A stretch of DNA of 32,262 bases, taken from a virus. The position numbers and the translations under genes are program-made. The stretch is from the IMG/VR virus record IMGVR_UViG_3300025168_000355, positions 1 through 32,262 of that record, one strand, 5' to 3'. The notes under the pieces were generated by a model. The model had not been told where the DNA came from and ran no database searches. It saw only the letters and a list, made by a program, of their open reading frames with translations. Below, one piece after another: positions 4,891 to 12,868 of the stretch; the first letter of the stretch is position 1, and each line of letters begins with the position of its first letter.

Positions 4891-4916
4891 TTCTTGTGTA
4901 TAATAAAAATATAACT

Positions 4917-4938
4917 AAGGGGTTTTTACCCCTTTTTT
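4917..4938 (+). terminator. Intrinsic terminator after the Cro-type gene
   Basis: AAGGGGT (4917-4923) pairs perfectly with ACCCCTT (4928-4934) around a TTTT loop, and the run of T continues to 4938. This is a textbook rho-independent terminator in the 75-base gap before the replication initiator gene. A TATAAT sequence lies just upstream at 4899-4904, so any RNA started there would meet the hairpin at its 5' end. Confidence 0.85.
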
Positions 4939-4965
4939 ATCCACTACCAAAAATGAGGAGAAGCA

Positions 4966-5610
4966 ATGAAAGATTCATTTATTGTATACAGAAGTTTCCA
5001 TCTAGCAATATCAGAATTAGAAGATAAAGACCGATTACAAATATACGATGCTATATTTGAATTTGGATTAAATCATAAAGAAATTAAATTAGAACATTTA
5101 CCAAAAGCTATGTGGCATTTGATCAAACCACAATTAGAAGCAAATCACAGAAAATACTTAAATGGTAAATTAGGTGGTCGTGGTAATAAAGCTAACCCAA
5201 AGCAAAACGAAAGCAAACAAGAACCTAAGGATAACCAAGAGATAACCACAGGTTATAAATCTAATAACCTAAGGATAACCAAACAAGAACCTAATGATAA
5301 TGTTAATGCTAATGTTAATAATAATGTAAATGTAAATGTTGGGTTGCCATTAAAAGAAAATGGCAATGAAGTAATATTAGACTTTGATTTTTTAAACGAA
5401 TTAAAAATAACTTACCCACTTGTTAATTTGCACGATGAATTAACAAAAATGAGAACTTGGTTATTAGCAAATCCATCTAAACGAAAAACAGCAAGGGGTA
5501 TGCCCCGATTTGTTAATTCTTGGTTGTCAAGAATAAAGACAGAATCACCTGTAGATAGTTATGCTAATATACATAAAGCTGTAATGGATAGAAAAAATGT
5601 ACGCAAATAA
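4966..5610 (+). CDS. Replication initiator, lambda-O-like organisation (DUF6291-type N-terminus)
   Basis: The 214-residue protein has three parts. Residues 1-65 (FIVYRSFHLAISELEDKDRL, IYDAIFEFGLN) match the N-terminal domain found in phage replication proteins of the DUF6291 type. Residues 65-125 form a low-complexity Asn/Lys/Gln linker (NVNANVNNNVNVNV). Residues 130-214 form a helical C-terminal domain (EKTYP-like LKITYPLVNLHDELTKMRTW, PRFVNSWLSRI) typical of proteins that recruit helicase loaders. The linker codes through an iteron array with all the marks of an origin, exactly as lambda O does. AGGAG lies before ATG 4966. The gene overlaps the next by 14 bases. Confidence 0.75.
   Translation: MKDSFIVYRSFHLAISELEDKDRLQIYDAIFEFGLNHKEIKLEHLPKAMWHLIKPQLEANHRKYLNGKLGGRGNKANPKQNESKQEPKDNQEITTGYKSNNLRITKQEPNDNVNANVNNNVNVNVGLPLKENGNEVILDFDFLNELKITYPLVNLHDELTKMRTWLLANPSKRKTARGMPRFVNSWLSRIKTESPVDSYANIHKAVMDRKNVRK
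5222..5366 (+). other. Predicted replication origin: four iterons, AT-rich region, inverted repeat
   Basis: Four direct repeats start at 5222, 5244, 5266 and 5288, i.e. exactly every 22 bases. Copies 1 and 3 are identical over 17 bases (AACCTAAGGATAACCAA); copies 2 and 4 are degenerate but keep AACC and the register. An AT-rich stretch made of TTAATG/GTAAAT units follows (about 5302-5340), then a perfect 8-bp inverted repeat, TTGCCATT 5344-5351 with AATGGCAA 5359-5366. Lambda ori has the same order of parts inside its O gene. The repeats are seen; the origin function is inferred. Confidence 0.75.
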
Positions 5611-6106
5611 CGATATAGACAATAATCAAATGGATTGCATACAAATAGCAACTGAGATTGCTTATTGGTGTGAAAGAAACTATGGTTATTTTGTTCGTAG
5701 CAAGGCCGACAAGGTAGCTACAATTAACGATTTATCTGATCAACTAGCAAGACTAACAGTGCATCAACAAAATAGCTGGAATAGAGCATTAAACCAACAT
5801 TACGATATGGGTTTGGCTCATCCACCTTTACCTGCACAAGTAATTAAAACAATGAGAGGTTTAGCACCCGAAAATAATGAGGAGATTAAAAAATTGGCAC
5901 ATAATATAAATGTACAAATAGATTGGTATGGACAATGGCAACAAGCAAATCACGATTCTAAAATGACGTTCTTTAAAGACCACCCACCTCAAGGTGTTGG
6001 TTGGACAGATATTCCATCTTATATTCAATACGAAGCTAAAAAATATTATATGGCAAATGCCGATATGAATAATTATGAAGCTATGATGCACATGAGAACA
6101 ACATGA
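5597..6106 (+). CDS. Hypothetical replication-region protein, possible helicase-loader partner
   Basis: The 169-residue protein directly follows and overlaps the initiator gene, the place of P-type helicase loaders in lambda-like phages. Residues 40-95 (DKVATINDLSDQLARL, WNRALNQHYDMGLAHPPLPA, QVIKTMRG) are helical and end with a Pro-rich turn, a layout reminiscent of lambda P. The C-terminal half is rich in Trp, Tyr and His (QIDWYGQWQQ, GVGWTDIPSYIQ). No Walker motif is present, so it is not itself an AAA+ loader of the DnaC kind. The role is inferred from neighbourhood and is uncertain. Confidence 0.55.
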   Translation: MYANNDIDNNQMDCIQIATEIAYWCERNYGYFVRSKADKVATINDLSDQLARLTVHQQNSWNRALNQHYDMGLAHPPLPAQVIKTMRGLAPENNEEIKKLAHNINVQIDWYGQWQQANHDSKMTFFKDHPPQGVGWTDIPSYIQYEAKKYYMANADMNNYEAMMHMRTT

Positions 6107-6585
6107 AAATTACTTTACAAAAATATGAAACGCAAGGTGCAAAATCTGGAGTGCTTGTTCCTTGCGATGAAGAATCAGAAACTTTTGTTGGTAAATTAAT
6201 TAGAAATGATGTAATTACTGCTGATTTTATAAAACCAAGAAATTACAAATTCCATAAAAAATGGTTTGCTTTAGTTAAATTTGCATATGATCATTGGAAA
6301 CCATCTAATCTTGAAGATGCAAGATGGAAAAATGTAGTTCCAGAAAAATCATTTGATAGATTTCGTAAAGATATTATTATTATGGCAGGAAGATATATTG
6401 CTGTGTATCGTGTAGATGGTTCTGTAAGAATAGAAGCACAATCTATTGCTTTTGCAAATATGGATGAAGAAGAATTTGGAAAATTGTATGACAAAACAGC
6501 AAATGTTATTTTAGAAAAAATATTAACTACTTACACAGCTGAAGAATTAGCTTTAACAGTTGTTAAATTAGAAACATTTTATTAA
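6103..6585 (+). CDS. DUF1367 family protein
   Basis: The 160-residue protein overlaps the previous gene by four bases (ATGA). It matches the DUF1367 pattern found in replication/recombination regions of temperate and virulent siphophages: an early GVLVPCDEESE segment, then NYKFHKKWFALVKFAYDHW, FDRFRKDIIIMAGRY, a serine/isoleucine block (IEAQSIAFANMDEEEFGKLY) and a helical C-terminus. No catalytic motif is obvious and no biochemical function is established to my knowledge. Its stop codon is part of the base of the leader fold in front of the next gene. Confidence 0.75.
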   Translation: MKITLQKYETQGAKSGVLVPCDEESETFVGKLIRNDVITADFIKPRNYKFHKKWFALVKFAYDHWKPSNLEDARWKNVVPEKSFDRFRKDIIIMAGRYIAVYRVDGSVRIEAQSIAFANMDEEEFGKLYDKTANVILEKILTTYTAEELALTVVKLETFY

Positions 6586-6635
6586 CCTATAGCAGTATTA
6601 TGCGTTCCAATGGTATTACAACACAGCAATAGGTT
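6584..6635 (+). promoter_or_regulatory. Leader fold covering the ribosome binding site of the 6636 gene
   Basis: AACCTAT (6584-6590, including the last two bases of the upstream stop codon) is perfectly complementary to ATAGGTT (6629-6635), which directly touches the ATG at 6636 and holds the only plausible ribosome binding site (AGG). The 38 bases between could fold further. The stem would need to open for initiation. The complementarity is visible; the control is inferred. Confidence 0.45.
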
Positions 6636-7392: not shown

Positions 7393-7612
7393 TTATAAAA
7401 AAGATTACTATGATGATATTCATATAGCACAATTACACACGCTAAGAACAGGTCTTTTATTAGAAATGAAAGGCATGAAATTAAGTTGTGGTAGAAGTTG
7501 TTATACGATCATAAAAAAGCGTTGGGATTTAAAAGGAAACCAACAAAGAGTTTATGAGCAATTAACATATGCAATGGAACAATGTTGTTTAATAGGAGAT
7601 GATAATGCTTAG
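7382..7612 (+). CDS. Hypothetical protein (76 aa)
   Basis: Two ATGs lie six bases apart. The one at 7376 touches the AGGAG binding site (7371-7375) and is too close; ATG 7382 has correct spacing and is preferred. The product is basic and Cys-containing (MKLSCGRSCYTIIKKRW near residues 32-48; MEQCCLIG near the end). The CxxxC and CC pairs could bind a metal but the pattern matches no family I know. Confidence 0.6.
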   Translation: MILDYKKDYYDDIHIAQLHTLRTGLLLEMKGMKLSCGRSCYTIIKKRWDLKGNQQRVYEQLTYAMEQCCLIGDDNA

Positions 7613-9644: not shown

Positions 9645-10195
9645 ATTCAGAGGATTTTTACGATAGCATTGCAGAGCAATACGATACATTCTTCCAAGAT
9701 GAGGCATCTAAGGAAGAAGATGCTAAAGTTAAAGAACATTTAATTCCATTGTTACAATGGGGCAATAAACGTGTCTTAGATATAGGATGTGGTACAGGTC
9801 TTTTATTAGAAATGTATTATATTGATGATTATATTGGTATAGACCCATCTATAAGAATGTTAGCTCAACTTACTAAAAAGTTTGAAAAATCTATAGTTTT
9901 TAAAACGCCCTTTGAAGATTTCCATTGGTTAAACAATAGAGATATATTAATTTCTTTATATGGTTCTATTAGTTATGTGGACCCTGTTTATTTTAAAGAA
10001 TACTTACAGCATTTTCATGGTGAATTTTATTTTATGTTTTATAACGATAATTACAAACCTGTAACTTACGATAAAGCTGGAAATAAAACTGAACATTACA
10101 ATATTAACGAATATGAATTTGATGATAAATGGATGTCAGGTGCTAATATTTATTATTTAAATAATTATTTAATTTTTACGAGTCTTGAATTATGA
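9641..10195 (+). CDS. Class I SAM-dependent methyltransferase
   Basis: The 184-residue protein has the SAM-binding motif VLDIGCGTG at residues 45-53 and the acidic motif II strand end GIDPS (66-70), preceded by the common YDSIAEQYDTFF N-terminus. The following strand DILISLYGSISYV (about 105-117) takes the place of motif IV, but there is no DPPY or NPPY motif, so it is not a standard N6-adenine or N4-cytosine DNA methylase. The substrate is open: a small molecule, a modified base precursor or protein. It lies between two overlapping genes (ATGA joints), so it is made together with the PAPS-reductase-like protein. Confidence 0.82.
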   Translation: MNSEDFYDSIAEQYDTFFQDEASKEEDAKVKEHLIPLLQWGNKRVLDIGCGTGLLLEMYYIDDYIGIDPSIRMLAQLTKKFEKSIVFKTPFEDFHWLNNRDILISLYGSISYVDPVYFKEYLQHFHGEFYFMFYNDNYKPVTYDKAGNKTEHYNINEYEFDDKWMSGANIYYLNNYLIFTSLEL

Positions 10196-11298
10196 GATTT
10201 TATAGAAATGAAAATGTTTTTGAAGTTGCATTAGATAGAATAAGATGGTTGTATGATGAATTTGACGATATTGTTGTTTCATATAGTGGTGGTAAAGATT
10301 CAGTAATTGTTTTTCAATTAACATTAATTGTAGCTAAAGAAAGAAACCGATTGCCATTAAAAGTTTTGTTTTTAGACCAAGAAGCAGAATTTGAAGCTAC
10401 TATTGATTTAGTAACTGAAATCATGGAAATGAAAGAAGTTAAACCTATGTGGTTTCAAATGCCTATGAAGATATTTAATGCCACATCTTCACAAGACCCA
10501 TGGATTCAATGTTGGGATAAAGATAAAGAACATTTATGGATGCGTAAAAAAGTACCATATGCAATTACAGAAAATAAATATGGAACTGATCGCTTTAAGG
10601 AAATGTTTACAAAAATATTACTTACAGATTTTCCACCTAGAAGTGCAAATATTGGGGGTGTAAGAGCCGAAGAAAGTCCAGCAAGACTACTTTCTCTAAC
10701 TGGACAAGTAACCTATAAGGGTGAAACATGGGGCAAAGCATTAGACAAAATTAAGCATAAATATACTTTTTATCCAATTTACGATTGGAGTTATACAGAT
10801 GTTTGGAAAGCAATACACGATAACAATTGGAAATATAATGTGGTGTATGATCAACAATTTAGTTGGGGTGTTCCAATATTAAAAATGAGAGTTTCTAGTT
10901 TATGCCATGAAACTTCTGTAGCAAATCTTAAATATCTACAAGAAGTAGAAAAAGATACATGGCAAAAATTAACTCAAAGATTACATGGAATTGATACAGA
11001 AGGTAAATTTGGAGATGATTTAGGTTGCCCCCAGGAATTACCATTTATGTTTCATAGTTGGAATGAATACAGAGATTACCTTGTAGATAATATGTTGCCA
11101 GAAGGTAAAGGCAAAATAAAAATAATTAAAAAATTTAAGAATTTTGATAATAGATTTGGACATTTAAAAAGATATTACAGAGTTTGTATTACAACAATTA
11201 TTAAAAATGATTATCACTTTACTTTATTAGATAATTACAGAGTTGCAAATAATAGAAAAGAAATTAAATCTGGAGTACCAAAGGAGATGTATGTCTAA
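10192..11298 (+). CDS. PAPS-reductase-like PP-loop protein (IbrA / DUF3440 type)
   Basis: The 368-residue protein has the PP-loop SGGKDS (residues 32-37), FLDQEAEFEAT (60-70), GGVRAEESPAR (155-165) and YPIYDWSYTDVW (194-205), all found in the PAPS reductase / adenine-nucleotide alpha-hydrolase family. The catalytic ECGLH tail of assimilatory CysH reductases is absent, so it is unlikely to reduce PAPS. It resembles IbrA-type proteins, which are encoded beside a ParB-fold partner, as here. PP-loop relatives such as DndC activate substrates with ATP during DNA phosphorothioation. The exact reaction here is unknown. It overlaps both neighbours. Confidence 0.85.
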   Translation: MRFYRNENVFEVALDRIRWLYDEFDDIVVSYSGGKDSVIVFQLTLIVAKERNRLPLKVLFLDQEAEFEATIDLVTEIMEMKEVKPMWFQMPMKIFNATSSQDPWIQCWDKDKEHLWMRKKVPYAITENKYGTDRFKEMFTKILLTDFPPRSANIGGVRAEESPARLLSLTGQVTYKGETWGKALDKIKHKYTFYPIYDWSYTDVWKAIHDNNWKYNVVYDQQFSWGVPILKMRVSSLCHETSVANLKYLQEVEKDTWQKLTQRLHGIDTEGKFGDDLGCPQELPFMFHSWNEYRDYLVDNMLPEGKGKIKIIKKFKNFDNRFGHLKRYYRVCITTIIKNDYHFTLLDNYRVANNRKEIKSGVPKEMYV

Positions 11299-11860
11299 AA
11301 TAAAAATGCCAATTGATAGTGTTAAATGGGTTAGTTTAGATAATGTTGAAGCAAATGATTACAACCCAAATTCTGTAGCTAAAACAGAATTAAAATTATT
11401 ACAAACTTCAATACTTGCTGATGGTTATACACAACCTATAGTTACTTTTTATGATAATGACAAAAACAAATATGTAATTGTAGATGGTTTTCATAGATAC
11501 ACCTGTTGTAAGATTAATAAAGACATCAATTCTATGTGTAATAACAAAATCCCAGTAGTTGTTATAGAAAAAGATATTAATGATCGTATGGCTTCTACAG
11601 TTAGACACAATAGGGCAAGAGGAAAGCATTCTGTAACAGGTATGAGTGATATGGTATTTAAAATGCTTGATAACGGAATGAGTGATACTGAAATATGTAA
11701 AGAATTAGGAATGGAAGCTGAAGAAATAGTTAGGTTAAAACATTTAACTGGATTTTCTAAATTATTTGCAAATGTAGAATATAGAAAAGCATGGGAAACT
11801 GATAAACAATTACGCATAAGAAAGGAACATAGAGATGGAAACGATAAAAAAGAAAATTAA
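11291..11860 (+). CDS. ParB/Srx-fold protein 1 (IbrB-like)
   Basis: ATG 11291 follows AAGGAG (11281-11286); a start at 11243 lies deep in the upstream gene. The 189 residues comprise a ParB/sulfiredoxin-fold domain (VKWVSLDNVEANDYNPNSVA, DGYTQPIVTF, and the active-site phrase VDGFHRY at 64-70), then RHNRARGKHS and a helix-turn-helix (SDTEICKELGMEAEEIVRL, residues 131-149). This is the IbrB arrangement and it directly follows an IbrA-like gene. ParB-fold proteins bind CTP or ATP and some cut or modify DNA. It overlaps ParB protein 2 by 26 bases. Confidence 0.85.
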   Translation: MSKIKMPIDSVKWVSLDNVEANDYNPNSVAKTELKLLQTSILADGYTQPIVTFYDNDKNKYVIVDGFHRYTCCKINKDINSMCNNKIPVVVIEKDINDRMASTVRHNRARGKHSVTGMSDMVFKMLDNGMSDTEICKELGMEAEEIVRLKHLTGFSKLFANVEYRKAWETDKQLRIRKEHRDGNDKKEN

Positions 11861-12374
11861 AGATTTAATACCATATAAAAACAATGCTCGATTAAATGAT
11901 GAAACAGTTGAGCGTTTAGCAAAATCAATAGAAGATTATGGTTATGTTGTTCCTATTGTAATTGATCACAAGAATGTTTTAGTAACTGGTCATGCTAGAT
12001 TAAAAGCAATTAAAAAATTAGGATGGAAAAATGTTGAATGTGTTGTGTCTAATTTATCTGAAGAAGAAAATAAAGAATATCGAATAATAGATAACAAAAT
12101 ACAAGATATTACAGAATGGAATGATGATTTATTAGTAACAGAATTAAGAGGGTTACAACATATAGCATCTGAATTTGATTTAAAAGTTAACACAGCATTA
12201 GAAACAAGTTATGGAATGTTTGACGATGCAGTAACAAATGCTGATATAGAAAAACAAGAAAACAAATTTGAAACTGGTTTTGTCAATAGGGCAAATCAAG
12301 CAAATGATAGTTTAATACAAGTTTCTTGTGAGCATTGTGGTGCTAATTTTGGTATAGAGGCTGATAAATTATGA
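11835..12374 (+). CDS. ParB/Srx-fold protein 2 with C-terminal CxxC
   Basis: The 179-residue protein has a compact ParB domain: IKDLIPYKNNARLNDETVER, SIEDYGYVVPIVID (31-44), TGHARLKA (51-58), then RIIDNKIQDITEWNDDLL (83-100). It aligns without gaps to the next gene over the first 100 residues, so the two are tandem duplicates. The C-terminal tail is VSCEHCGANFGIE, with one CxxC knuckle (C165, C168), half of a zinc ribbon. No HTH follows the ParB domain, unlike protein 1. Similar genes precede the terminase in many phages; their role in packaging or modification is not settled. Confidence 0.83.
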   Translation: METIKKKIKDLIPYKNNARLNDETVERLAKSIEDYGYVVPIVIDHKNVLVTGHARLKAIKKLGWKNVECVVSNLSEEENKEYRIIDNKIQDITEWNDDLLVTELRGLQHIASEFDLKVNTALETSYGMFDDAVTNADIEKQENKFETGFVNRANQANDSLIQVSCEHCGANFGIEADKL

Positions 12375-12868
12375 ATATACAATCTATAAAAACTAAAGAT
12401 ATTATTCCGTATTGGCGTAATCCTAGAAAAAATGATGAAACTTTACCAGCTTTAATTAAATCTATACAAAAATATGGTTTTAAAGTTCCGTTAATTATAG
12501 ATAATAAAAATGTAATTATAAGTGGGCATACAAGATTTAGAGCAATTGTTGAATTAGGATGGGAAGAAGTAGATTGTGTAAAAGTAGATTTTAGTGATGA
12601 AAAAGCTAAAGAATTACGATTGTTGGATAATAGAATACATGATTTAACACAATGGAATCAAATTGAATTAGATGATGAACTTGCGTCTATTATTGGATTT
12701 AGTAAAACACTTGATTTCTTTGATGGAACATTAGATAAGATATTTGATATAACAAAAGAAAGTTTTGATGTAGATTTAAATATAGAAATTGGTGCATCAG
12801 AAAGCGAAACTGAGGATGTATTAGTAATATGTCCTGTATGTATGGAAATGACAAAACTTGAGAAATAA
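12371..12868 (+). CDS. ParB/Srx-fold protein 3 with C-terminal CxxC
   Basis: The 165-residue protein repeats the plan of the preceding gene: KTKDIIPYWRNPRKNDET, SIQKYGFKVPLIID (31-44), SGHTRFRA (51-58) and LRLLDNRIHDLTQWNQIEL (82-100) lie at the same residue numbers. The tail VICPVCMEMTKLE also ends with one CxxC (C154, C157). Divergence is substantial, so the duplication is old and both copies appear kept. The ATGA overlap with the upstream copy suggests equal expression. The terminase small subunit gene starts two bases after its stop. Confidence 0.83.
   Translation: MNIQSIKTKDIIPYWRNPRKNDETLPALIKSIQKYGFKVPLIIDNKNVIISGHTRFRAIVELGWEEVDCVKVDFSDEKAKELRLLDNRIHDLTQWNQIELDDELASIIGFSKTLDFFDGTLDKIFDITKESFDVDLNIEIGASESETEDVLVICPVCMEMTKLEK

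Follow-up and report, generated by a model that had tools for sequence, protein, structure and literature searches.

The initiators ORF16 of the lactococcal phage Tuc2009 (Rep2009) and ORF13 of TP901-1 bind repeats in their own genes, and these repeats serve as the origin (PMC8965321). In the rep gene of Tuc2009, AACC occurs at 7438, 7449, 7460, and 7471, that is, in four exact 11-bp steps, and the sequence record bears the remark 'contains origin of replication'. When the rep gene of TP901-1 was taken as a second control, its lag-15 signal was not significant. The iterons of lambda, found at 39034, 39054, 39078, and 39101 with spacings of 20, 24, and 23 bp, are 18-19-bp inverted repeats, or dyads (PMC7466680), to which O dimers bind, forming the O-some (PMC3985674, PMC7466680). 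In SPP1, oriL lies in gene 38 and combines direct repeats in the gene of the origin-binding protein with an AT-rich unwinding element (PMC6316719).

Here we analyzed the whole 32,262-nt stretch of IMG/VR record IMGVR_UViG_3300025168_000355, a virus of bacteria, which we refer to as the window. Judging from the sequence, replication of this virus most likely starts at a row of repeats inside the gene of a putative initiator (Table 1). The row and its 11-bp register were computed directly. Within ORF 4966-5610, three AAGC cores (5189, 5200, and 5211) are followed by six AACC cores (5222, 5233, 5244, 5266, 5277, and 5288), both types sharing one register, so that the core AASC fills 9 of 10 slots from 5189 to 5288 in 11-bp steps. 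The slot at 5255 lacks AACC, and an inverted GGTT at 5251 stands beside it. A single dyad is present in the array, and the remaining units are 11-bp direct units. The sequence-only reading had reported four iterons in this gene, at 5222, 5244, 5266, and 5288, with a 22-bp step. These positions are correct, but the true step is 11 bp: the units named are every second one, and those at 5233 and 5277 as well as the upstream AAGC units had been missed. The lag-11 score reaches its window-wide maximum of 17 at the array, the next best value being 8; when the whole window was simulated 60 times with a Markov model, the maxima averaged 7.3 and never exceeded 10. The observed value was reached in 1 of 5000 local shuffles, and p was about 0.003 by comparison to synonymous-codon shuffles. 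A scan of both strands of the window for core units chained at 11-bp pitch, with a minimum of four per chain, returned this array only.

Table 1. Positions of the features at the candidate origin, in window coordinates
Feature	Position	Strand	Description
Putative replication initiator	4966..5610	+	N-terminal DUF6291, linker, C-terminal domain common to other phage initiators
11-bp-pitch iteron array	5188..5298	+	AAGC and AACC cores on one lattice
Dyad with inverted half-site	5242..5256	.	ATAACCACAGGTTAT (ATAACC-ACA-GGTTAT); adjoins empty array slot
AT-rich TAATG/TAAATG tract, candidate DNA-unwinding element	5291..5341	+	Encodes NVNVN linker; in register with last iteron
8-bp inverted repeat, 7-nt loop	5344..5366	.	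TTGCCATT at 5344-5351, AATGGCAA at 5359-5366
Probable lambda P-type helicase-loader-like protein	5597..6106	+	Overlaps initiator stop; hhalign to P-like group

The array is located in the linker-encoding part of the gene, and the encoded protein matches DUF6291 (PF19808; E 2.5e-15, 56.8 bits versus a curated cut-off of 27.2). This was its only match in a Pfam search, in which Phage_rep_O (PF04492) was not detected, and the combination of a Tuc2009-type N-terminal region with Rep_Org_C (PF06926) was not found in the protein either. The C-terminal domain is 43% identical over 58 amino acids to gp42 of Ruminococcus phage phiRgIBDN1, which is annotated as a replisome organizer. Like the window, phiRgIBDN1 has an in-gene 11-bp array, of TGTCAACC, but gp42 carries a Tuc2009-type N-terminal region where the window protein has DUF6291. 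The same domain matches (27/40) a Phage_rep_O protein, L186, of which the N terminus belongs to Phage_rep_O (E 2e-20) and the gene contains lag-24 repeats and is followed by DnaB. An AlphaFold model of the initiator was of low confidence (mean pLDDT 54) and gave no match in Foldseek, and a PDB profile search returned nothing credible. We found no mention of DUF6291 in the open-access papers that were searched.

In pitch and core, Tuc2009 is the nearest match to the window array, and its direct repeats are likewise inside the initiator gene. However, its Rep protein has a different N-terminal region, with undetectable homology to DUF6291, and a Rep_Org_C C terminus. The common AACC motif may therefore reflect convergence. 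Lambda ori resembles the window in that iterons in the initiator gene, O, are followed by an AT-rich tract and then by the gene for a loader, P, of the kind likely to come next in the window, and in that L186, a Phage_rep_O protein, has the C-terminal domain of the window protein. By contrast, lambda has 18-19-bp dyads at 20-24-bp spacing that are bound by a Phage_rep_O protein, whereas the window has 11-bp units in a DUF6291 gene and lacks an array of dyad iterons at the lambda spacing. The in-gene origin proposed earlier is well supported by comparison, but the label 'Lambda-style' is loose, denoting a functional analogy and not membership, and Tuc2009 is closer.

The same row of repeats recurs within the DUF6291 genes of many unrelated phages. 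The consensus from 178 units in 31 genes is DAASCWAA plus three loose bases, with A at 97% and 90% in the two positions after W, which were not set by the search pattern. Core types vary among DUF6291 genes (AACC, AAGC, and GGGC/TAGC, the last in L102) and differ between close relatives, for example, AAGC in L096, where TAGC occurs as well, and AAGC plus AACC in the window. The cultured Nitratiruptor phages NrS-2 and NrS-3 also have a DUF6291 gene, with a weak array in NrS-3. In an extra sample of ten loci from named phages and prophages, the lag-11 test was positive for L175, L196, L204, L199, and L202, weak for L174 (p 0.04), significant without a clear array for L193, and negative for L205, L198, and L195. 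Few additional DUF6291 loci came from the sampled genomes of two phyla. Instead of the 11-bp array, L124, L130, and L139, and similarly L167, have AACCAC/AGTGGTT dyads (AACC-GGTT) spaced by about 23-24 bp, which resemble the lone dyad of the window. In the linkers of L140, L143, L160, and L162, AACCCC cores replace AASCWAA, also at 11-bp pitch. The DUF6291-like genes of L205 (Riemerella phage GDF21) and L203 (CRP19), which encode nearly the same protein, contain a lag-10 repeat of the GATAGCAA type, not lag 11.

An AT-rich block after the repeats had been noted from the sequence and is present. In the window, the array is followed by TAATGATAATGTTAATG and then by the inverted repeat, and in 27 of the 31 genes TAAT, which belongs to the AT-rich tract, adjoins the last unit without a gap. 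By stability, the tract of the window ranks within the lowest 2-4% of stretches, although it is not the single least stable one. The 8-bp inverted repeat also exists as had been described, but it is not above chance: it did not exceed synonymous shuffles in any of 10 relatives, a sample that included the window and covered members with LPLK, not those with MPLK at this place. As a signal was lacking in these 10 sequences, we rejected the interpretation of this repeat as a conserved lambda-like palindrome, and the lambda parallel drawn for it is without statistical support. The suggested check by GC skew was uninformative for the origin position, because the skew is positive throughout the window with no turning point. 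A terminator-like hairpin, AAGGGGTTTTTACCCCTT, to which a T-run is appended, is located at 4917-4934, just 5' of the initiator gene. Rfam gave no match, nor did a nucleotide search of named phages with positions 4900-6600.

The gene that follows the initiator probably encodes a lambda P-type helicase-loader-like protein, based on its alignment with the P-like loader group A3 (hhalign Prob 94.5, E 8e-8). A member of this group, L104, matches PF06992 at 6.5e-5, which is below the curated cut-off, and the P-like helicase loader phrog_109 at 3e-7. The window protein itself had no direct Pfam or PHROG match to a loader family and no relative among named phages. Its AlphaFold model was of low confidence (mean pLDDT 62), and Foldseek and a PDB profile search gave no credible match. 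Downstream of other DUF6291 genes we observed DnaB (L140), a P-like loader (L104), helicase-like ATPases (L131 and L175), and a G39P-like loader (L115), the last of these adding to the likeness with the published SPP1 origin, with its in-gene repeats and AT-rich element. Among those window proteins that were scanned, none matched a further initiator family or any helicase or primase family.

These neighborhoods, together with the AT-rich tract, argue against the most serious alternative, namely that the array is an internal operator through which the DUF6291 protein throttles transcription or expression of its own gene, while replication starts elsewhere. Sites in a gene that are bound by the gene's own product could affect expression as well, and the initiator gene overlaps the next gene, so that, by their coordinates, both are probably on one transcript. 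We nevertheless consider such an operator improbable: the AT-rich tract stands at a fixed register beside the array in most genes, loader or helicase genes adjoin the DUF6291 genes, the comparable array of Tuc2009 sits in an experimentally identified origin, and the window has no comparable array elsewhere. Less credible again is a role of the array in partition or packaging, as a parS-like or pac-like site. It is true that the product of ORF 11243-11860 is similar to ParB-like partition proteins of phages (phrog_2159, E 1e-74) and that ORFs 11835-12374 and 12371-12868, which follow it consecutively, resemble it by eye, but the ParB-like gene is 6 kb from the array, and the array recurs within the DUF6291 gene, the neighbors of which are loaders or helicases. 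The product of 10192-11298 resembles phosphoadenosine phosphosulfate reductase (phrog_2302, E 7e-86).

The array in DUF6291 genes is under selection at the level of the DNA. We compared 56 distinct DUF6291 linkers with shuffles that preserve both the protein and the codon usage of the gene. Over all linkers, lag 11 gave 753 observed versus 171 expected, lag 22 gave 519 versus 150, and lag 33 gave 472 versus 273. Lags not related to 11 were close to expectation, with a modest excess at lag 23 (146 versus 80). The lag-11 signal was present in 44 of the 56 linkers and absent in about a fifth, and some linkers, for example that of L169, had no significant array whatever. In close pairs, which are not independent inside one group, synonymous changes affected 12/418 core sites (2.9%) and 53/544 spacer sites, compared to 347/2293 sites in the DUF6291 domain (15.1%) and 410/2603 in the downstream C-terminal part (15.8%). 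The iterons are thus kept at synonymous sites in relatives, as the sequence-only reading had proposed to examine, with 2.9% change in the cores versus about 15% elsewhere in the gene. Four or more cores in a chain were found in 26 of 64 DUF6291 genes, at pitch 11 only, versus 0 of 259 other, neighboring ORFs of the same loci. Taken together, the lag excess, the low synonymous change in the cores, and the distribution of the chains identify selection on the DNA. We give very little weight to the possibility that the DNA has no role and the repeats merely reflect a repetitive Lys/Asn/Gln-rich linker encoded by an A-rich genome. The linker is indeed of low complexity and the genome AT-rich, but since neither 11 nor 22 is divisible by 3, the same motif is translated in all three frames, and a repeated peptide alone cannot account for an array in which each step shifts the reading frame. 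Furthermore, synonymous shuffles destroy the array, its synonymous core sites are conserved, and none of the 259 other ORFs contains it.

These sequences are best read as an origin that lies inside the gene of its initiator, a protein of a new class. We estimate a probability of roughly 0.8 that positions 5188-5341 constitute a theta-type origin within the gene of its own initiator, at which DUF6291 would bind the array, the AT-rich tract would open, and DnaB would be recruited. This reading of an in-gene origin is well supported by iterons maintained at synonymous sites, an AT-rich tract in register with them, a next gene related to P-like loaders, and a C-terminal domain that also occurs in a Phage_rep_O protein. 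At the level of sequence, the segment has both the iterons, selected as DNA inside the putative initiator gene, and an adjoining AT-rich element. We infer that DUF6291 binds DNA, that the tract opens, that the helicase is recruited, and that the segment acts as an origin, as follows. With an AASC unit at each helical turn of 11 bp, DUF6291 proteins bound to neighboring units would line up along one face of the DNA, in a compact row ending at the AT-rich tract. The assembly of initiators would strain and then open the TAATG/TAAATG tract. The C-terminal domain would bring the host DnaB helicase, probably through the loader-like product of 5597-6106. By analogy, opening of the tract and loader-mediated delivery of DnaB may proceed as in lambda and SPP1.

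We also lean, with less confidence, toward a more general proposal: DUF6291 may be a widespread origin-binding domain of phages, with origins inside its own genes as arrays of one unit per turn (DAASCWAA, 11 bp) or, in a minority, as dyad arrays of about 23-24 bp. The helicase-facing C-terminal domain would then have been swapped between unrelated DNA-binding domains, and the same 11-bp AACC grammar would recur in unrelated initiators of the Tuc2009 type. The recurring array suggests a job for the uncharacterized DUF6291 family. If this is correct, a function would be assigned to a Pfam family found in phages and prophages from marine, gut, rumen, and hydrothermal vent sources and from duck excrement, and an 11-bp AASC chain followed by TAATG would provide a sequence rule for locating origins in unannotated phage genomes. 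Because the type of iteron core switches between close relatives, the coevolution of initiator and origin is directly testable. The coding sequence of the initiator would carry two messages at once.
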